Shown here: positions 16,487-49,048 of the stretch, one piece after another
How positions within the stretch are numbered: position 1 is the first letter of the stretch
Layout: every line of letters begins with the position of its first letter
Assembly (NCBI GenBank): GCA_020996635.1
Contig: JAJJBE010000085.1
Span: 1-64,000 of the forward strand
Reading direction: 5' to 3'
Length of the DNA: 64,000 bases
Origin: Bathymodiolus brooksi methanotrophic gill symbiont
GTDB taxonomy: Bacteria; Pseudomonadota; Gammaproteobacteria; Methylococcales; Methylomonadaceae
Made by a program: the position numbers and the translations under genes
The notes under the pieces: generated by a model
The model's input: only the letters and a program-made list of their open reading frames with translations
What the model was told of the DNA's origin: nothing
The model's database searches: none

Positions 16487-16987
16487 GTGCAGCAAAGAGC
16501 TATTGCGGTGAGTGCTTGTTTATTAGGCCATAAAGTTAGATATGATGGAGCAGACCAAAAGTTGTCGCTTATTTCCAATATACTTGCTGAACAATTTAAA
16601 TTAATCGCAATTTGTCCAGAAATGGAAATAGGTTTAGGTGTTCCGCGTGAGAAAATAGAATTAATAATAAATGGCTTACAAACGCGCGTACAAAGTACCC
16701 AAGTACCTTTTGTTGATTTAACATCAAAAATACAAAACTATGCCAAGTCTTTTCTGGCTAATGAAATGATTTTTGGTTTTATTCTGAAAGATAAATCACC
16801 CAGTTGCGGTGTTAAAAATTGTAAAATTAAGAACCAACAGGGAGTAGTTAATAATAATGGCACGGGTATTTTTGCTGCCCAAATTATGTCTTTAAAACCT
16901 AATATGCCAATGATACAAAGTGATCGTGTGATTAATACACAAGCTTTAAAACTTTTTATACAGCAAGTAAATGTCTATGAATATTAA
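16487..16987 (+). CDS. DUF523 domain protein
   Basis: A 166-aa protein of the DUF523 family, whose members carry conserved cysteines. [15 protein letters not shown] near the N-terminus, [14 protein letters not shown], and [13 protein letters not shown] are the family signatures and suggest a metal or cluster site. The function is not known. The start is a GTG immediately after ybeD, and the 3' end overlaps lipB by 17 bp. It is an addition to the usual ybeD-lipB order. Confidence 0.85.
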
Positions 16988-17591
16988 ATGTCGTCAGCTA
17001 GGAGCGCAAGACTATACAAGCTGCTGGCAAGCGATGCAAGATTTCACTGTAGCAAGAGATGAGCAGACGGAAGATGAAATATGGATAGTAGAGCATCCTC
17101 CTGTCTTTACTTTAGGGCTTAATGGCAAGCCAGAGCATTTGTTACAAAGTTCCGAGATACCTTTAGTCAACACGGATAGAGGGGGACAAATTACCTATCA
17201 TGCCCCGGGGCAGTTGGTGATTTATACTTTAATTGATATGAAGCGCCGTGGATTAGGTGTGCGCCAATTAGTGACAATTTTAGAACAAGCGATGATTGAT
17301 GCTTTGGCACAATATGGATTAAAATCCAAAGCAAAATCAGATGCTCCAGGTGTTTATATCGATGGGAAAAAAATTGGTGCAGTTGGTTTGCGTATCAAAA
17401 AAGGCAGCAGCTATCATGGCTTAAGCTTAAATAATAATATGGACTTATCGCCCTTTAGCCTGATTAATCCCTGTGGTTATAAAGGCTTACAAGTGACACA
17501 ATTAAGTGATTTTGATGTCAATATACGCACCAACGAACTTGCTGTGCCTGTCCTGCATGCGATTGTTAATGCTTTAAACACAATAGATTAA
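16971..17591 (+). CDS. lipB: Octanoyl-[ACP]:protein N-octanoyltransferase
   Basis: Moves octanoate from acyl carrier protein to the lipoyl domains of E2 subunits and GcvH, the first step of lipoate assembly. It is 206 aa. The active pair is Lys134 ([11 protein letters not shown]) and Cys168 (NPCGYKGL), matching the Lys/Cys pair of E. coli LipB, and the substrate loop [13 protein letters not shown] is present. Two ATGs two codons apart (16971 and 16977) could serve as start. It is followed by lipA, and its target AceF is encoded in the same region. Confidence 0.95.
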
Positions 17592-17610
17592 TTACCCGAA
17601 CTCTTTATTT

Positions 17611-18576
17611 ATGTCATCAATTCAAGCTCCTTCGCGAACCAGTCCCGATACACATCAGCGTAATGCAGATAAATTATCGCGTATTCCCATAAAGGTAGAG
17701 CCTGCTGAAACAGTCTTACGCAAACCCGAGTGGATACGGGTGAAATTAAGCGCAAATCCTGATGTGGCGCGAATTAAAAAAACACTACGTGATAATAATT
17801 TGCATAGTGTTTGTGAAGAAGCCGCTTGCCCTAACTTGAGTGAATGTTTTAGTTTGGGTACGGCAACTTTTATGATTATGGGGGATTTGTGTACACGGCG
17901 TTGTCCTTTTTGTGATGTGGCTCATGGAAAGCCACAAGCTTTAGATGTTGATGAGCCGTTTAATATGGCTAAAACAATAAAAAAATTATCTTTAAATTAT
18001 GTGGTTATTACTTCGGTTAATCGGGATGACCTAAAAGATGGTGGCGCTGGACATTTTTCTGCGTGTATTTCTGCTATCAGAAAGCAGTCACCTAAAACTA
18101 AAATAGAAGTACTAGTTCCTGATTTTAGAGGGCGTGTGGATATCGCATTAGCTATCTTAAAAGAATCACCTGTGGATGTTTTTAATCATAATTTAGAAAC
18201 TATTCCGCGTTTATATAAACAAGCTCGCCCAGGGGCGAATTACCAAGAGTCTTTAGATTTACTTAAAGCTCATTATGAAATGTTACCTGCAGTACCAACT
18301 AAATCAGGTTTAATGCTAGGTATTGGTGAAACGCAAGAAGAAGTGCTAGCTGTTATGCGTGATTTACGTGCGCACCACGGTGCTATTTTAACCTTGGGGC
18401 AATACTTGCAACCGAGTGCAGACCATTTAGCCGTACAGAGATATATTACGCCTGATGAATTTGATGAATATGCCGTATTAGCGAAAGAAATGGGCTTTAA
18501 AAAAGTCGCGAGTGGCCCGATGGTACGCTCCTCTTATCACGCTGATGAACAAGTACGTGGATTACTGGAGAAATAA
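17611..18576 (+). CDS. lipA: Lipoyl synthase
   Basis: Radical SAM enzyme that inserts two sulfurs into octanoyl groups on lipoyl domains. The 321-aa protein has the auxiliary cluster cysteines Cys68, Cys73 and Cys79 ([12 protein letters not shown]), and the radical SAM cluster Cys94, Cys98 and Cys101 (CTRRCPFC). The C-terminal SSYHADE supplies the serine that caps the auxiliary cluster in this family. It begins 19 bp after lipB. The enzyme consumes its auxiliary cluster, so it depends on iron-sulfur supply. Confidence 0.97.
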
Positions 18577-21024: not shown

Positions 21025-21203
21025 GTATCTCCCACCTGCGCCGATGTAAGGCATCGTCCTTGAACCGAAAGGTTCAAGTGGGTGTCTATCCTGCACTTCA
21101 GGCTTTCCGCTAGCGGACATGCACACTAATACAAGAATCGACTCCCGAGGGTTTAATAGGTCCAAGGAACACCCACCTCGCTGTCGAACGCCGCAGGAGA
21201 TAC
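21025..21203 (-). ncRNA. ssrS: 6S RNA
   Basis: The minus strand opens with gtatctcc (21203-21196) and ends with its exact complement ggagatac (21032-21025), giving the closing stem of a 179-nt molecule. Inside it are features of gammaproteobacterial 6S RNA: cttgaacc...ggttcaagg near the 3' half, gcctgaagtgcag, and a long, interrupted, double-stranded shape. It lies 10 bp downstream of zapA on the same strand, the usual place of ssrS. 6S RNA binds housekeeping RNA polymerase and mimics an open promoter in stationary phase. The usual fau (ygfA) neighbour is absent. Confidence 0.88.
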
Positions 21204-40954: not shown

Positions 40955-42496
40955 ATGCCACAAGATTATATAAAAAAAATTCTCCGAGCTAAAGTCTATG
41001 ATGTCGCCGAAGAAACACCGCTAGACTATGCGCCTACTTTATCTAAACGAAGTTCCAATCATATATTTCTAAAGCGAGAAGATTTGCAGCCCGTTTTTTC
41101 TTTTAAAATTCGTGGTGCTTATAATAAAATTGCTTTTTTAAGTGATGCGGAAAAACAGCAAGGTGTGATTGCTGCCTCTGCGGGAAATCATGCGCAAGGT
41201 GTTGCTTTATCCACCCAAAAACTGGGTATTAAAGCACTCATTGTTATGCCTAAAACAACGCCTGAAATCAAAGTGAACTCTGTTAAAGCATTGGGTGCAA
41301 AGGTAGTGTTGATTGGTGATGCATTTGATGATGCTTATCAACATGCTAAAACCTTAGCAAAAGAACAAAAAATGACCTTTGTTCACCCGTATGATGATGC
41401 AGATGTCATTGCAGGGCAGGGTACAGTGGCAATGGAAATATTTCGCCAAAAAACTGAACATATCGATGCTATTTTTGTTCCTGTAGGAGGAGGTGGCTTA
41501 ATTGCAGGAATTGCTGTTTATGCTAAATTTGTACGCCCTGATATTAAAATTATAGGGGTTGAACCGAATGATTCTGATTGTTTGAACCGTGCATTAAAGG
41601 CAAATAAACGCGTAAGTTTAAATCAAGTGGGTTTATTTGCTGATGGTGTCGCCGTTAAGAAAATAGGCAAAGAAACATTTCGCTTAGCAAGGCTTTTTGT
41701 AGATGAAGTGATTACCGTTAATACGGATGAAATCTGTACGGCGATTAAAGATATTTTCGAAGATACGCGTTCCGTGGCGGAACCTGCAGGGGCTTTATCG
41801 GTAGCAGGATTAAAGAAATATGTAGAGCGTGAGCAGCTAATCGATAAGACTTTAATTGCAATAGAAAGTGGTGCCAATATTAATTTTGATCGCTTACGCT
41901 ATGTGGCTGAACGTAGCCAAGTAGGCGAGCAAAAAGAAATTTTATTAGCGGTTACCATTCCAGAAAAAGCGGGTAGTTTTTTAACCTTTTGTAAACTCTT
42001 AGGACGACGTAATATCACGGAATTTAATTATCGTTATTTTAATGAGTGCCAAGCACAAATTTTTGCGGGTATTTCTAGTTCAGGCCTTGAAGGCGATAAA
42101 GTAGGTATTATTTCTCGACTTGAAGAGCATGGTTTTTTAGTGACAGATATGACGCAAAATGAACTTGCAAAAGAGCATGTGCGTTATATGGTCGGTGGGC
42201 ATGCTCCTTGTGAATTGCATGAAATTATTTACAGCTTAGAATTTCCAGAAAGGCCTGCTGCATTACTCAAGTTTTTAACCTCATTAGGTAGTCAGTGGAA
42301 TATTAGTTTATTTCATTACCGTAATCATGGTGCGGCGTTTGGTAAGGTATTGATTGGTGTACAGCTTAAGCCATCAGAAAAAAAGGCCTTACAGCTATGT
42401 TTTGAAGCCTTAGGGTTTCTTTATGTTGAAGAAACAAAAAATCCTGCCTATCAATTATTTAGCGGTGGGAAAAGTGAAGAGAATAACCATGAATAG
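40955..42496 (+). CDS. ilvA: Threonine ammonia-lyase, biosynthetic
   Basis: Deaminates threonine to 2-ketobutyrate, the first step to isoleucine. It is 513 aa. The PLP lysine is Lys51 in SFKIRGAYNK, the glycine loop is VPVGGGGLIAGIA, and two C-terminal ACT-like regulatory domains (from about residue 325) mark the isoleucine-inhibited biosynthetic form. The 3' end overlaps kdsD by 8 bp. Confidence 0.96.
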   Translation: MPQDYIKKILRAKVYDVAEETPLDYAPTLSKRSSNHIFLKREDLQPVFSFKIRGAYNKIAFLSDAEKQQGVIAASAGNHAQGVALSTQKLGIKALIVMPKTTPEIKVNSVKALGAKVVLIGDAFDDAYQHAKTLAKEQKMTFVHPYDDADVIAGQGTVAMEIFRQKTEHIDAIFVPVGGGGLIAGIAVYAKFVRPDIKIIGVEPNDSDCLNRALKANKRVSLNQVGLFADGVAVKKIGKETFRLARLFVDEVITVNTDEICTAIKDIFEDTRSVAEPAGALSVAGLKKYVEREQLIDKTLIAIESGANINFDRLRYVAERSQVGEQKEILLAVTIPEKAGSFLTFCKLLGRRNITEFNYRYFNECQAQIFAGISSSGLEGDKVGIISRLEEHGFLVTDMTQNELAKEHVRYMVGGHAPCELHEIIYSLEFPERPAALLKFLTSLGSQWNISLFHYRNHGAAFGKVLIGVQLKPSEKKALQLCFEALGFLYVEETKNPAYQLFSGGKSEENNHE

Positions 42497-43436
42497 TCTA
42501 CAAATTGCTCGGCAAGTCATCAAAATAGAAGCAGAGCAAATCTCCAATTTATTAGATTCATTAGATGATAATTTTGAGCAAGCAGTGAATGTTATTTTAG
42601 GGTGCAAAGGTAAGTTGATTATTTCTGGTATGGGGAAATCAGGTATTATCGGTAAGAAAATTTGTGCGACTTTAGCCAGTACTGGTACACCAAGCTTTTA
42701 TCTACACCCTGCGGAAGCCTATCATGGTGATTTAGGCATGATAGAACCGCAAGATATTGTGTTATTGATTTCTAATTCAGGGGAAACAGATGAAGTTTTA
42801 AAACTGATTCCTTTTTTAAAAGAGCAGGGCAATATCACCTTAGCAATGAGTGGCAATTCGCACTCTACCTTAGCAAAAAATACGCATTATCACCTAAGTA
42901 TAGCTGTCACAGAAGAGGCGTGCCCTTTACAATTAGCACCGACTTGCTCCACAACAGCAACCTTAGTAATGGGGGATGCTCTCGCCGTTGCTTTAATGCA
43001 ACTTAGGCAATTTAAAGATGAACATTTTGCACGCTTTCACCCAGGTGGTACTTTAGGGCGGCGGTTATTAATGACCGTGAAGGATGTCATGCAGACGCAA
43101 AATTTACCGCGCTGTTATAAAAATACAAAAGTTCATGATGTCGTGCATGCGATTACTCAAGGCAAGTGTGGCTTGGTAGTAGTATTGCAACATAATGATA
43201 TTCTTGGCGTGGTCACTGATGGCGATATTCGTCGTGCAATGGAAACCCAAGAAAGCACCTTTTTTAGCTTAAGAGCTGCTGATTTAATGAGTGCTCAGCC
43301 TAAAATAATTCAGCAAACGGCTCGGTTGACTGACGTGAGTGAAGTTATGGAGCAACATAAAATTAATTCAGTTTTAGTGGTTGATGAACAACAAGCCTTT
43401 GTTGGTGTCGTGCAAATGTATGATTTAGGAATTTAA
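42489..43436 (+). CDS. kdsD: Arabinose-5-phosphate isomerase
   Basis: Converts ribulose 5-phosphate to arabinose 5-phosphate, the first step of Kdo synthesis. It is 315 aa from this ATG. The upstream frame to 42423 lies inside ilvA and is rejected. A SIS domain (GKLIISGMGKSGIIGKKI, then LISNSGETDEVL) is followed by two CBS domains (MQTQNLPR onward). The C-terminal SVLVVDEQQAFVGVV is typical. It leads directly into kdsB. Confidence 0.94.
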   Translation: MNSLQIARQVIKIEAEQISNLLDSLDDNFEQAVNVILGCKGKLIISGMGKSGIIGKKICATLASTGTPSFYLHPAEAYHGDLGMIEPQDIVLLISNSGETDEVLKLIPFLKEQGNITLAMSGNSHSTLAKNTHYHLSIAVTEEACPLQLAPTCSTTATLVMGDALAVALMQLRQFKDEHFARFHPGGTLGRRLLMTVKDVMQTQNLPRCYKNTKVHDVVHAITQGKCGLVVVLQHNDILGVVTDGDIRRAMETQESTFFSLRAADLMSAQPKIIQQTARLTDVSEVMEQHKINSVLVVDEQQAFVGVVQMYDLGI

Positions 43437-43439
43437 AAT

Positions 43440-44201
43440 ATGAAAACAATCGTCGTCATTCCCGCAAGATTAAATTCTAGCCGCCTGCCAAATAAAGTAT
43501 TGCTGGATTTAAAGGGTAAAACGGTCGTGCAGCGTGTTTATGAGCAATCATTAAAGGCAAAAAATATAGACGAAGTGTATATTGCGACAGATAGCCAAGA
43601 GGTGCTTAAATCATGCCAAAGGTTTACTCAAAATATTATTTTGACAGAGACTAAGCACGAGTCTGGTACGGATAGAATTGCAGAAGCCGTGAGCCAAATT
43701 GACTGTGATAATGTTATCAATGTACAAGGTGATGAGCCTTTTATAGAGCCAGATTTAATTGGCCAAGTTGCCAGTGCTTTAACCAGTGATAATAGTATAA
43801 AAATGAGTAGTGCAATGCACCGCATAGAGCAGGTGAGTGATTTAAAAAATCCTAATGTGGTTAAAGTCACGGTAACAAAAAATAAGTCAGCACTTTATTT
43901 TTCAAGGTCGATTATTCCTCATCACCGCGATGAGTGGGAGTCGCTTTTAAACCATCATACAAAAATCCCCGATGCTTTAAATTTTTATCGTCACTTAGGT
44001 ATTTATGGTTACAGCAAAGATTTTTTAATTGAATTTTCAAAAATGCAGCCGACTTATTTAGAGCGTTTAGAGAAATTAGAGCAATTACGTGCATTAGAAA
44101 ATGGCTTTGCGATACAGATGATAGAAACGAGTTATAACTCAATTGGTATTGATACTCAGGTCGATTATGATAAAGCAGTAAAGTTTTTAAGCAGAAATTA
44201 A
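43440..44201 (+). CDS. kdsB: CMP-Kdo synthetase
   Basis: Activates Kdo with CTP for transfer by WaaA. It is 253 aa with the nucleotidyltransferase start VVIPARLNSSRLPNKVL and the conserved INVQGDEPFIEPDLI. The ending GIDTQVDYDKAV is typical of KdsB. It is 3 bp after kdsD and 1 bp before a DUF3375 gene, so all three may share a message. Confidence 0.95.
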   Translation: MKTIVVIPARLNSSRLPNKVLLDLKGKTVVQRVYEQSLKAKNIDEVYIATDSQEVLKSCQRFTQNIILTETKHESGTDRIAEAVSQIDCDNVINVQGDEPFIEPDLIGQVASALTSDNSIKMSSAMHRIEQVSDLKNPNVVKVTVTKNKSALYFSRSIIPHHRDEWESLLNHHTKIPDALNFYRHLGIYGYSKDFLIEFSKMQPTYLERLEKLEQLRALENGFAIQMIETSYNSIGIDTQVDYDKAVKFLSRN

Positions 44202-44202
44202 T

Positions 44203-45642
44203 ATGGACCACGATTACCTATTAAAACTGCGCCAACACTCAACATGGCGCTTACTTTGTACGGATAATGCCCCCTTAATTATCAGTTTCTTTCATCGTGT
44301 TTTTATTGTGCCTAACTGCCGCTCTATAAAGCAGCGAGAGTTAGCGGAAAAGCTTGAAGATACTTTATTCCACCTGCGTCAAATTCATAAAAACAAATAC
44401 CCCAAATCAGCAAAAGCCTATTTAACTGATTGGGCGCATGGTGATAATGCCTTCTTGCGTAAATATTATGCAGAAAATAGTGATGAGCCAGAGTTTGATT
44501 TAACGCCAGCCAGTGAAAAAGCGATTGAGTGGCTACATAGTTTAGAGCAAAAACAATTTATAGGAACCGAGTCACGATTATTAACCGTCTTTGAGTTATT
44601 AGCGACCATTTTACAGACGACGCAAACAAACCCAGAGCAACGGATAACGGAATTAGAGGCGAAAAAGTATGAAATAGAGGCTGAAATTGCACGCTTACAG
44701 CAAGGCGAAGTGATTAGCTATGACCCTCGCCAAGTTAAAGAACGCTTTTATCAGTTAGAAGAAACGGCTCGCAGTTTATTAATGGATTTTCGCCAAGTAG
44801 AAGAGAATTTTCGTCAGCTTGATCGCAATACACGAGAAAAAATAGCCATAAGCAATAAAAACAAAGGTGATTTATTATTAGATGATATTTTTGGCGAACA
44901 GGATGATATAGGCGACTCCGATCAGGGTAAAAGTTTTCAGGCATTTTGGGGCTTGTTAATGTCGACTGCCAAACAAGAAGAGTTTAATGATTTAATTCAA
45001 AAGGTCTTAGCGTTAGAAGAGGTAAAAAGCTGTGAGCCTGATGAGTTGCTGCCTAAAATGAAATATCACTTACTTGAAGCAGGTGAAAAAGTACAGCGCA
45101 CCAGTTCTAGTTTAGTCGAGCAGTTAAGGCGTTATTTAGATGATCAAGTTTGGTTAGAAAATAAACGCATCATGGAAATTATTCATGAGGTAGAAAAATC
45201 TGCGATTAGTATTAAGCAAACACCTCCTAAAGACAAAGACTTTGCTTATTTAGATGATACCAAAGCGGCGATTGATTTAGCCGTTTCGCGAACCTTATTT
45301 CGTCCGCCTAGCCGGCCGGTTATTGCAGATGAAAAACTAAGCACTGGCACCGCTAAATTTAGCAGTGACCTGTTATATAGCCAGCATTATGTTGATATTG
45401 AAATGCTAGAACGACGCATTAGCAAGGCCTTACAAAGCCAATCACAAATTACCTTGTTAGCCTTATGTAAAGAACACCCTTTAGAAAAGGGATTGAGTGA
45501 ATTAATCGCTTATATAAACCTTGCCGGCCAAGATAATGCTAATGCTGTAATTGATACCAATAAAGAGGTAGAAATCTTTTGGCAGAGTTCGGAAGGCGTG
45601 GATAAATCGGTTAAAATGCCCAGTGTAATTTTTACGCGTTAG
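44203..45642 (+). CDS. jetA: DUF3375 protein, JetA/MksF-like kleisin, without partners
   Basis: A full-length 479-aa protein of the DUF3375 family, the MukF-like subunit of MksBEF condensins and of Wadjet (JetABCD) plasmid defence. It shows the family's N-terminal winged-helix region (LIISFFHRVFIVPN), FVGTESRLL-like FIGTESRLLTVFELL, the long helical middle, DSDQGKSFQAFWGLLMS, and the ending MPSVIFTR. JetB (DUF4194), JetC (SMC ATPase) and JetD (DUF3322/2220) normally follow it, but here only repeats and a broken toxin-antitoxin pair do. It begins 1 bp after kdsB. It may be a remnant or may work with partners elsewhere. Confidence 0.85.
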   Translation: MDHDYLLKLRQHSTWRLLCTDNAPLIISFFHRVFIVPNCRSIKQRELAEKLEDTLFHLRQIHKNKYPKSAKAYLTDWAHGDNAFLRKYYAENSDEPEFDLTPASEKAIEWLHSLEQKQFIGTESRLLTVFELLATILQTTQTNPEQRITELEAKKYEIEAEIARLQQGEVISYDPRQVKERFYQLEETARSLLMDFRQVEENFRQLDRNTREKIAISNKNKGDLLLDDIFGEQDDIGDSDQGKSFQAFWGLLMSTAKQEEFNDLIQKVLALEEVKSCEPDELLPKMKYHLLEAGEKVQRTSSSLVEQLRRYLDDQVWLENKRIMEIIHEVEKSAISIKQTPPKDKDFAYLDDTKAAIDLAVSRTLFRPPSRPVIADEKLSTGTAKFSSDLLYSQHYVDIEMLERRISKALQSQSQITLLALCKEHPLEKGLSELIAYINLAGQDNANAVIDTNKEVEIFWQSSEGVDKSVKMPSVIFTR

Positions 45643-45697
45643 TTTCTGATTATCTTCAGTTTTGCGAGTAAAAACAGTAGGTTGGTCTGCCGTCTTT

Positions 45698-45828
45698 TTG
45701 GTATCCCAACATTCCTTAGCTTATTCTGGGAGCGCGATCTTTAGTCGCTGCAATCACATATCAAGCATTCCGCGACTAAAGATCGCGGTTCCATTAAGCG
45801 AGCATCTTCAAGTAGCTTGGGTATAGAT
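45698..45828. repeat. Repeat family R3 carrying an R4 palindrome
   Basis: ttggtatcccaac at the left and cttcaagtagcttgggtat at the right resemble the R3 ends. Inside, cgcgatctttagtcgc (45733-45748) and gcgactaaagatcgcg (45772-45787) form a perfect 16-bp stem with a 23-nt loop. A half of this palindrome recurs at 46669. It fills most of the space between the DUF3375 gene and higA (45643-45938). Confidence 0.65.
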
Positions 45829-45938
45829 ACCATTTAAAATGGCAGTTTGTTGCGGTTCTTTTGCAAAAAAATGACGCTTTAAATGGTCATCTGGATTTTT
45901 TGGTTATGTTTTGTGTTAGCTACTTTATGAACTTCTGC

Positions 45939-46283
45939 CTATAAACTTTCATAAGGTATATTTAAGTTTTTATGTAAACACTTAATCATTTTTAAGCTTA
46001 AAGGGCGTTTACGGTTAAGGATTTCTGACACTCTTCCACTGCTTCCGGTATGTTCTTCTAAATCTCGAGCTTTTAAGCCTTGCTGTTCCATTCTAAATTT
46101 AATAGCATCAACAGGGTCAGGTGGTGTGATTGGGTAATGTTTGTTTTCATAAGCTTCAATTAAAGTAACTGAAATCTCCATATCATCAGCTTCTTTAGTA
46201 CCAGATTTTGCTTGAAATACTTTCTCAAGCTGACGAAAGCTTTCTTGTAAATCACTTTCACTACGGATTGGTTTAATATTCAT
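45939..46283 (-). CDS. higA: HigA-type antitoxin
   Basis: A 114-aa protein whose C-terminal half is a helix-turn-helix of the Xre class (GLKARDLEEHTGSSGRVSEI and LNRKRPLSLKMIKCLH). The N-terminal half is the domain that wraps the HigB toxin. In this type of HigBA pair the toxin gene comes first, and here its 3' remnant overlaps higA by 11 bp. The antitoxin seems complete and may still repress its promoter, but that promoter is lost with the 5' end of higB. Confidence 0.85.
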   Translation of the reverse strand: MNIKPIRSESDLQESFRQLEKVFQAKSGTKEADDMEISVTLIEAYENKHYPITPPDPVDAIKFRMEQQGLKARDLEEHTGSSGRVSEILNRKRPLSLKMIKCLHKNLNIPYESL

Positions 46284-46500
46284 TTACATCCCCAACATTA
46301 ATTTTATCGTATTGAGTATGCGTTCCAACGAACTTAACCCAAACAATATTTGCTTGATATTGAATTTCAACTATTAATCGGTATTTATTACCACCAATAT
46401 TAAACACAACTCTATTATTTTTACAAATACTTGCATTTGCATATTGGTTTTTTATGGACTGAGGTGATTCCCAGTTTGCTTTTATAGCTTCTTCATACGC
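46273..46500 (-). pseudogene. higB: HigB toxin, 5' end removed by a repeat
   Basis: In the minus strand, the frame from 46500 reads AYEEAIKANWESPQSIKNQY, then a segment containing NNRVVFNIGGNKYRLIVEI and VGTHTQYDKINV. This is the C-terminal three-quarters of a HigB RelE-fold mRNA interferase. The N-terminal 25-30 residues and the start codon are missing. A stop (TGA) lies in frame three codons upstream, inside a repeat that begins at 46496. With the toxin broken, the pair is inactive as a toxin-antitoxin module. Confidence 0.85.
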
Positions 46501-46571
46501 TGAAAATCAGGGAAATTCGCCAATCCGAAGTAAACTGGTAAGTTCGCTCGGGAGGCAAGAATTTTATCCCG
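46496..46571 (+). repeat. Dispersed repeat, copy 2 (also at 1851)
   Basis: tacgctgaaaatcaggga, ccaatccgaagtaaactg, taagttcgctc and aattttatccc match the copy at 1851-1953. Its left boundary is where the homology of higB to its family ends. tcggga and tcccga near its right end could pair. Confidence 0.65.
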
Positions 46572-46612: not shown

Positions 46613-46700
46613 TGCACGAAGCAACCTCCTGATTTCTAAATAGTCTTTTTGTAGATATATTTTATCTTCACTGGGAGCGCGACCTTTAGTCACGCAACTT
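46613..46700. repeat. Half copies of R2 and R4
   Basis: ttaggaacgtgcacgaa with ctcctgatttctaa (46613-46640) is the left half of R2. ctgggagcgcgacctttagtc (46670-46690) is half of the R4 palindrome. Together with the copy of the 1851 repeat they fill the spacer between higB and topA. Confidence 0.55.
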
Positions 46701-46729: not shown

Positions 46730-49048
46730 CTAGCTGGTCGGCCCATTAATATCTTCAGGGTCGCCTTCGTATGGAGTGGCGTATTTACACTCTTTTTGCG
46801 GGCAAACTTTTTCAGGGCCGCGGCGTTTAGTTGTTTTTAACGTTAAAATGGGCCATTCACAAGCAGGGCAAGGGTCTTTAACCGGCACATTCCATAATGC
46901 ATAATCGCATTTTGGGTAGTCGGAGCAAGAATAAAAAATCTTACCGTAACGTGACTTACGTTTTAAAATACTGCCTTTATTGCATTTAGGACACTCAACC
47001 CCTGTATCTAAAGGTTTCTCTAAAGGCTCGATATGCTTACATTTTGGGTAAGAGCTACAGCCAATAAAGTTACCATAGCGTCCTGTTTTAATGACTAAAT
47101 CAGACTCGCAGCTAGGACATTTCCTGTCTGCTACAATTTCTGGATTATTTGCTTCTGTGCCATTATCATTTAAATTACGGGTGTATGAGCAAGTAGGGTA
47201 ATCGGTACAACCTATAAAGCGACCATTACGACCTAAGCGGATAGATAGCTGTTTATCACATTCAGGGCACTTTTCATCAATGGCTTCTTGAGTGACATCT
47301 TTACGTTGCACCGACTCTTCTTTTTCATGGATTAGCTTGGTGAAAGGTTTCCAGAATGCACTCAGTAGTGGAACCCAATCTTTTTCGCCACGTGAGACCG
47401 CATCTAAGTTATCTTCCAGTTTAGCGGTAAAGTCGTAGTCTACATATTTTGTGAAATGATCGGTTAAAAATTTAGCAACAATACGACCCACATCGGTTGG
47501 GTAAAATCGCTTTTTATCTAAAGTAACGTATTCACGGTTTTGTAAAGTAGAAATAATTGAAGCATAAGTAGAAGGGCGACCAATACCGTGTTCTTCTAAT
47601 GATTTAACTAAGCTTGCCTCGCTGTAGCGTGGTGGTGGTTCGGTGAAATGTTGATTAGTAACAATCGCATCTAAAGGAATCTTATCGCCTTTTTTCATTG
47701 CTGGTAAGAAGGTTTCTTTGTCATCTCCTGCTTTATTGTCATCCTTTCCTTCTAAATAAACCGCCATAAAGCCAGGTTTTGCGATCACAGAACCGGTTGC
47801 TCGGAATACATTTTTTTCGTTGCCACAATTCAAATCAACAGAAACTGTGTTGATAGTAGCGTGAATCATTTGGCAGGCAATGGTACGCTTCCAAATTAAA
47901 TCATAGAGTTTAAATTGATCGCTAGATAGATACTTTTTTAAATCAGCAGGGGTTTGTTGTGCCAAAGTAGGGCGCACTGCTTCATGCGCTTCTTGTGCAT
48001 TTTTAGATTTTGTTTTAAAGGAGCGAGGTTCTTTAGGAACTTGATCGGCCCCATATTTTTCGCTGATTAAAGCGCGAATATTTTCTAGCGCTTCTTCTGC
48101 TAAATTCACAGAGTCAGTACGCATATAGGTAATTAAACCACTGGTTTCGCCACCACCAATGTCAATTCCTTCATAAAGTTGCTGTGCAACCATCATGGTG
48201 CGTTTAGTGGTAAAACCTAATTTCCGTGCAGCTTCTTGTTGTAAGGTTGAGGTAATAAAAGGCGGAGATGGGTTGCGTTTGTGTTGTTTCTTTTCTAAGT
48301 TAGCAACGACTAGTTCGCCTTGAGCTGCTTTTTCAAGCTCTTCTTGTGCCGCAACAGCTTGTGCATCATTAGTAATACTAAATTGACTTAGTTTTTCACC
48401 TTTGTAGTGGGTTAGCTTGGCTTTGAAAGTTTGTTTTTCTTGGGTGAGCTTGGAGGTAATCGACCAATATTCTTTGGTTTTAAACGCTTCAATTTCAAGT
48501 TCGCGTTCTACAATCATTCGTAATGCAGGACTTTGTACCCGGCCAGCCGATAAGCCACGACGAATTTTTTTCCATAACAAGGGTGATAAGTTAAAGCCAA
48601 CTAAGTAATCTAAAGCGCGGCGTGCCTGTTGGGCATCAACCAAGTTGGTATCAATTTCTCCTGGGTTATCAATGGCATGTGTCACCGCTTTTTTGGTGAT
48701 TTCATGAAACACGACGCGATGAACTATTTTCTTTTTAAGCAGTTTTTTATCTTTAAGCATTTCTAATAAATGCCAAGAAATTGCCTCTCCCTCTCTATCA
48801 GGGTCAGTCGCGAGATATAAAGTATCTACACCCTTTAGGGCTTTGGTAATCGCTTGTAAATGACGTTGGTTGCGTTCTTGTACTTGGTACTTCATTGCAA
48901 AATCATTTTCTGGATCAACAGCGCCTTCTTTAGGGATTAAGTCACGCAGGTGGCCAAAGGAAGCAAGAACTTGAAAGTCTTTACCTAAGTATTTTTCTAT
49001 GGTTTTTGATTTTGCAGGTGATTCTACAATAATTAAATTTTTGCTCAT
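46730..49048 (-). CDS. topA: DNA topoisomerase I
   Basis: Type IA topoisomerase (772 aa) that relaxes negative supercoils. The N-terminal Toprim domain begins NLIIVESPAKSKTIEKYLG and has the acidic triad in LATDPDREGEAISWHL. The active tyrosine is in GLITYMRTDSVNL. The C-terminus has four Cys4 zinc-ribbon units starting CPECDKQL, CPSCESDL, CPKCNKGS and CPACEWPI. The gene is followed upstream by smg and dprA, a common order. Confidence 0.97.
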   Translation of the reverse strand: MSKNLIIVESPAKSKTIEKYLGKDFQVLASFGHLRDLIPKEGAVDPENDFAMKYQVQERNQRHLQAITKALKGVDTLYLATDPDREGEAISWHLLEMLKDKKLLKKKIVHRVVFHEITKKAVTHAIDNPGEIDTNLVDAQQARRALDYLVGFNLSPLLWKKIRRGLSAGRVQSPALRMIVERELEIEAFKTKEYWSITSKLTQEKQTFKAKLTHYKGEKLSQFSITNDAQAVAAQEELEKAAQGELVVANLEKKQHKRNPSPPFITSTLQQEAARKLGFTTKRTMMVAQQLYEGIDIGGGETSGLITYMRTDSVNLAEEALENIRALISEKYGADQVPKEPRSFKTKSKNAQEAHEAVRPTLAQQTPADLKKYLSSDQFKLYDLIWKRTIACQMIHATINTVSVDLNCGNEKNVFRATGSVIAKPGFMAVYLEGKDDNKAGDDKETFLPAMKKGDKIPLDAIVTNQHFTEPPPRYSEASLVKSLEEHGIGRPSTYASIISTLQNREYVTLDKKRFYPTDVGRIVAKFLTDHFTKYVDYDFTAKLEDNLDAVSRGEKDWVPLLSAFWKPFTKLIHEKEESVQRKDVTQEAIDEKCPECDKQLSIRLGRNGRFIGCTDYPTCSYTRNLNDNGTEANNPEIVADRKCPSCESDLVIKTGRYGNFIGCSSYPKCKHIEPLEKPLDTGVECPKCNKGSILKRKSRYGKIFYSCSDYPKCDYALWNVPVKDPCPACEWPILTLKTTKRRGPEKVCPQKECKYATPYEGDPEDINGPTS

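Follow-up and report, generated by a model that had tools for sequence, protein, structure and literature searches.

Why does an intact Wadjet gene stand alone behind a Kdo synthesis gene, and does it still belong to a working system? We addressed this question in a stretch of 64,000 nucleotides (the window) from contig JAJJBE010000085.1 of assembly GCA_020996635.1, a methanotroph of the genus Methyloprofundus. In Wadjet, an anti-plasmid defence system, JetA (kleisin) joins JetB (KITE) and JetC (SMC) in a dimer-of-dimers motor proposed to detect small circular DNA via loop extrusion and to trigger the nuclease JetD; all four subunits are required (PMC10586767). The kleisin of the C. glutamicum system, MksF, serves as the interaction hub (PMC10123090). 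A sequence-only reading of the window had noticed a lone full-length DUF3375 gene 1 bp behind a Kdo gene with no partner genes, and our inspection of the frame, profile matches and searches of the same genome confirmed this observation.

The window encodes an intact JetA behind kdsB

The gene, jetA, occupies positions 44203-45642 on the plus strand and encodes 479 amino acids with no internal stop codon. The earlier end at 45938 overshoots the stop codon by 296 bp; positions 45643-45938 are intergenic and contain a dispersed repeat. We observed full-length matches to DUF3375 (PF11855, E = 2.8e-134, profile positions 3-474 of 474) and to the PADLOC JetA1 profile (PDLC00457, E = 1.6e-188, profile positions 1-478 of 480). 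The sole PDB matches by sequence were JetA chains of Wadjet complexes (E about 1e-18). A Foldseek search with the predicted structure (mean pLDDT 73.6, pTM 0.34) placed E. coli and P. aeruginosa Wadjet JetA chains at the top (best E = 2.8e-16, 8as8_E), in agreement with a kleisin fold. Global TM was low (0.28) because the domain arrangement of the model is uncertain, and the structural comparison was made per domain with the global arrangement set aside. The window gene is an intact JetA of a type I Wadjet family. It is not a new family; the family is ordinary and the situation is unusual.

Directly upstream lies kdsB, encoding CMP-Kdo synthetase (43440-44201, plus strand; PF02348, E = 1.4e-56), preceded in the same gene run by a kdsD/kpsF-type arabinose-5-phosphate isomerase gene with SIS and CBS domains (42423-43436, plus strand). 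The kdsB stop codon TAA is followed by a single T and the jetA ATG. kdsB and jetA are probably cotranscribed by read-through from kdsD-kdsB, and promoter and terminator scans around the two genes gave no surplus over shuffled sequences.

The downstream repeats and broken toxin-antitoxin pair described earlier were also recovered. An inverted repeat with 22-bp arms (45727-45793) lies within the dispersed intergenic repeat, and its core, GGAACCGCGATCTTTAGTC, occurs in about 30 genomic places. This dispersed element (45727-45827) is MITE-like and a possible rearrangement substrate. The arm CTGGGAGCGCGAYCTTTAGTC (45726-45746) has a second direct copy at 46671-46691. An intact HTH antitoxin-like gene of the HigA type (45939-46283, minus strand) matched PADLOC PD-Lambda-2_B over its first 117 positions. 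It is accompanied by a toxin fragment found by frame translation (about 46273-46506, minus strand), which lacks its N-terminal part and which we take to be HigB-like from its resemblance to known HigB. The jetA-jetB insert of another locus in our survey likewise contains a HigB toxin gene (L105, 7911-8222). Past the repeats, profile search identified a convergent neighbour, topA (46730-49048, minus strand). Elsewhere in the window, a 6S RNA was detected at 21025-21202 on the minus strand (Rfam RF00013, 90.5 bits).

JetB, JetC and JetD are not found in the same genome

No DUF4194, JetC or JetD gene was found within the window, and no jetBCD remnants were found beside jetA. The sequence-only reading had proposed a genome search for DUF4194, a JetC-like SMC and JetD; we ran it and observed no credible candidate in the assembly (2.43 Mb, 268 contigs, estimated 100% complete). 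Profile searches for JetB (PF13835, DUF4194) and the Toprim nuclease JetD (PF09983, JetD_C) gave sub-threshold matches only. JetB, JetC and JetD queries from the congener G017 returned nothing at E <= 1, not even a fragment at a contig end.

As a control, the same JetC query was positive in 70 of the 78 JetA-bearing genomes of the order, which indicates that the search method works. The window genome is one of the remaining eight. jetA is broken in three of the others (G007, G213, G308) and cut by a contig end in a fourth (G034), while the last three (G015, G091, G310) are incomplete or have no downstream room at a contig edge. The window genome is thus the sole genome of at least 90% completeness among the 78 with an intact, contig-interior jetA and no JetC.

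jetA has moved relative to its congeners

JetA is carried by 7 of 18 genomes of the genus, and most congeners lack it. In the closest congeners, jetB-jetC(-jetD) lie immediately downstream of the same jetA. G017 has jetABCD in canonical order, with jetA on a different contig from kdsB. G010 has jetABC beside heptosyltransferase genes (locus L043) and no adjacent jetD. In G008, an insert separates jetA from jetB and jetC is followed by other genes, again with no adjacent jetD (locus L045); the gene behind jetC at this locus encodes a 720-aa PDC-S06-like ATPase, and the N-terminus of a JetD begins at the contig end. In G015, an AbiLi-like ATPase gene comes after jetA at a contig end. The G007 genome has no JetC, and its jetA is interrupted by a stop at codon 265 and is truncated beside mobile-element-like genes. 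The frame is decaying both there and in G266. The sequence-only reading had named partner genes just outside the repeats in close relatives, or a decaying frame in relatives, as findings that would speak against it; both hold in part, with partners adjoining jetA in G017 and G010 and a decaying frame in G007 and G266.

jetA adjoins heptosyltransferase genes in four congeners and lies behind kdsB in none. The heptosyltransferase-side protein that marks this congener site is absent from the window genome. The lipA site, which holds jetABCD in relatives (L070, L117), is present in the window (16971-18576) with no jet gene there. G004 and G017 share the kdsB type of the window (~85% identity), and their kdsB has other neighbours and no jetA. 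Since congener jetA sits elsewhere and congener kdsB lacks it, jetA itself moved to kdsB. The earlier proposal of a last piece of a lost Wadjet therefore stands in part. The partners that adjoin congener jetA are absent from this assembly, but the gene is not just a deletion leftover at the ancestral site.

Detachment of jetA is recurrent in methanotrophs

We surveyed 73 near-full-length JetA copies in the order. JetC was within 1.5 kb of JetA for 53 copies, about 1.8-11 kb away across inserts for 9, on another contig for 7 and absent for 4. Three of the seven other-contig cases are true splits, all in methanotroph genomes (G269, G296, G232). In each, jetA has unrelated genes as neighbours on either side, and a complete jetBCD operon lies among unrelated genes elsewhere. 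The G269 jetA lies between an ion channel gene and cheY/cheA (loci L115 and L098), that of G296 behind ruvB (L114 and L099), and that of G232 between ilvB and a nicotinamide-nucleotide adenylyltransferase gene (L104 and L103); flanking gene names come mostly from reading translations. Those of the split-genome JetB, JetC and JetD proteins that were scanned matched PADLOC type I profiles over their full length, and both JetC proteins scanned (n = 2) retain Walker A and B ATPase domains. When JetA distance is set against JetC distance, the split pairs lie on the line given by the linked pairs (r = 0.98, linked), a pattern to be expected if the parts of a single system had moved apart. Detachment of intact jetA from jetBCD is recurrent in these methanotrophs, with the partners persisting in trans.

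G301 is probably a fourth split, its JetC being cut by a contig end. Three further candidates (G028, G201, G223) were rejected as contig-break artefacts or ambiguous; a complete relative, G203, has a jetA-jetB insert. Interrupted operons (L105, L106, L107, L108, L109, L110, L045, L054) have inserts that separate jetA from jetB or jetC and that bring in defence-like genes, such as those for toxin-antitoxin pairs or helicases. The gap between jetA and jetB appears to be a hot spot for insertion. On plasmids, jetABCD was linked in the usual way (4 of 4 inspected). A narrow literature search returned no recognisable description of a split Wadjet.

Purifying selection acted along the jetA branch

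Synonymous sites were saturated between congeners (pairwise dS, NG86/YN00), and because of this we used a purpose-written GY94 branch model on a jetA tree whose deep nodes are weakly supported. Singleton N/S counts were set aside for saturation bias. The window branch had an omega of 0.061 against a background of 0.059, and omega = 1 was rejected (2dlnL = 112). When fitted jointly, the window branch (0.058, roughly 0.035-0.09) was about twice as high as the terminal branches of close congeners (0.029; 2dlnL = 7.3). The long branches of G301 and G303 had an omega as high as that of the window branch. As a control, the G007 jetA, which carries a stop codon, had an omega of 0.021, so that an omega averaged over a long branch is blind to recent loss. 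These data indicate that JetA worked for nearly all of the branch, and they are silent on its present function. The earlier view that the intact frame means continued selection or very recent loss was right, but dN/dS cannot choose between the two when a stop-carrying congener scores 0.02.

The lone jetA as a probable remnant of a recently lost system

On balance, we lean towards a two-step history. The type I Wadjet kleisin gene jetA would have left its operon for a new place behind kdsB; jetB (KITE), jetC (SMC ATPase) and jetD (nuclease) would then have been lost from the lineage, too recently for jetA to have decayed. Detachment followed by partner loss is the order we infer. The detached gene may ride on kdsB transcription, and the lone JetA would now be inactive against plasmids, because known Wadjet needs all subunits (PMC10586767, PMC10123090). 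This history is supported by the intact JetA, by partners that are absent from the assembly and adjoin jetA in the closest congeners, by recurrent jetA detachment in relatives and system decay elsewhere in the genus, and by long-term purifying selection. Against it, a partnerless state is unusual: in all three of the other well-documented cases of a detached, intact jetA, the genome also carries an intact jetBCD. In addition, a 5-kb locus could be missing from 268 contigs, and the kdsB-jetA junction comes from one assembly.

A working split Wadjet, in which JetA from the kdsB locus assembles in trans with JetBCD encoded outside the assembly, seems rather unlikely to us. It is a serious rival all the same, because partners exist for the other detached jetA genes that were verified. 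G269, G296 and G232 have both halves intact with jetA among unrelated housekeeping genes, their distances follow the linked-pair line, and the window frame is intact under strong selection. However, the genome is estimated to be complete and yielded no partner fragment even at contig ends. Moreover, where JetC falls in an assembly gap elsewhere, jetA or jetC lies at a contig end, whereas the window jetA is inside a 100-kb contig. We likewise give less than even odds to the broader proposal that methanotroph type I Wadjet can run split, its kleisin gene detached and sitting behind a housekeeping gene such as ruvB in G296 or kdsB in the window, with the lone jetA as the kleisin half of such a system.

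It is improbable that JetA acts alone or with another SMC, as a stray kleisin on a different complex or a dominant-negative Wadjet brake. The intact frame and an omega of about 0.06 on a long partnerless branch would fit such a role, and the twofold rise over congeners is compatible with altered constraint. Nevertheless, the broken congener copy shows that omega does not mirror recent history, the raised omega recurs on the G301 and G303 branches, and no other genome of at least 90% completeness has an interior, intact jetA without JetC. We know of no activity of JetA alone, and no catalytic activity is known for the protein. Nothing positive supported the earlier suggestion of a new role with proteins encoded elsewhere.

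That the junction is an assembly chimera, with the real jetA and its partners elsewhere, is very improbable. Although the junction occurs in a single assembly and the nearest relatives with this kdsB (G004, G017) have no jetA there, no repeat was found at the junction, jetA and kdsB are equally diverged from congeners (83-86% and 84-85%), and JetB, JetC and JetD would remain absent from the assembly.

Comparison with known Wadjet and condensin systems

The part of the finding worth keeping is the recurrent detachment of jetA in methanotrophs. Defence-system finders rely on rules for gene sets and genetic organisation (PMC9090908), and therefore a jetA apart from jetBCD may score as absent or incomplete; such calls could be wrong for the split genomes. 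These genomes also enable a clean test of whether JetA from another locus gives JetBCD back its plasmid restriction. It is the window genome that would tell a split system and a stranded leftover apart.

MksBEF condensin, which has no nuclease MksG, contains a kleisin (MksF) of the same type as JetA, but an MksB/JetC-like SMC and MksE/JetB were not found in the window genome. Compared with type I Wadjet (JetABCD; MksFEBG/EptABCD), the window JetA is a full-length JetA1/DUF3375 protein whose nearest structures are JetA chains; the genome differs in that its assembly has none of JetB, JetC and JetD and in carrying jetA detached behind kdsB. The closest likeness in setting is to the split Wadjet of G269, G296 and G232: there, as in the window, an intact jetA stands alone at a housekeeping locus, whereas those genomes hold jetBCD elsewhere and the 268 contigs of the window assembly hold none.
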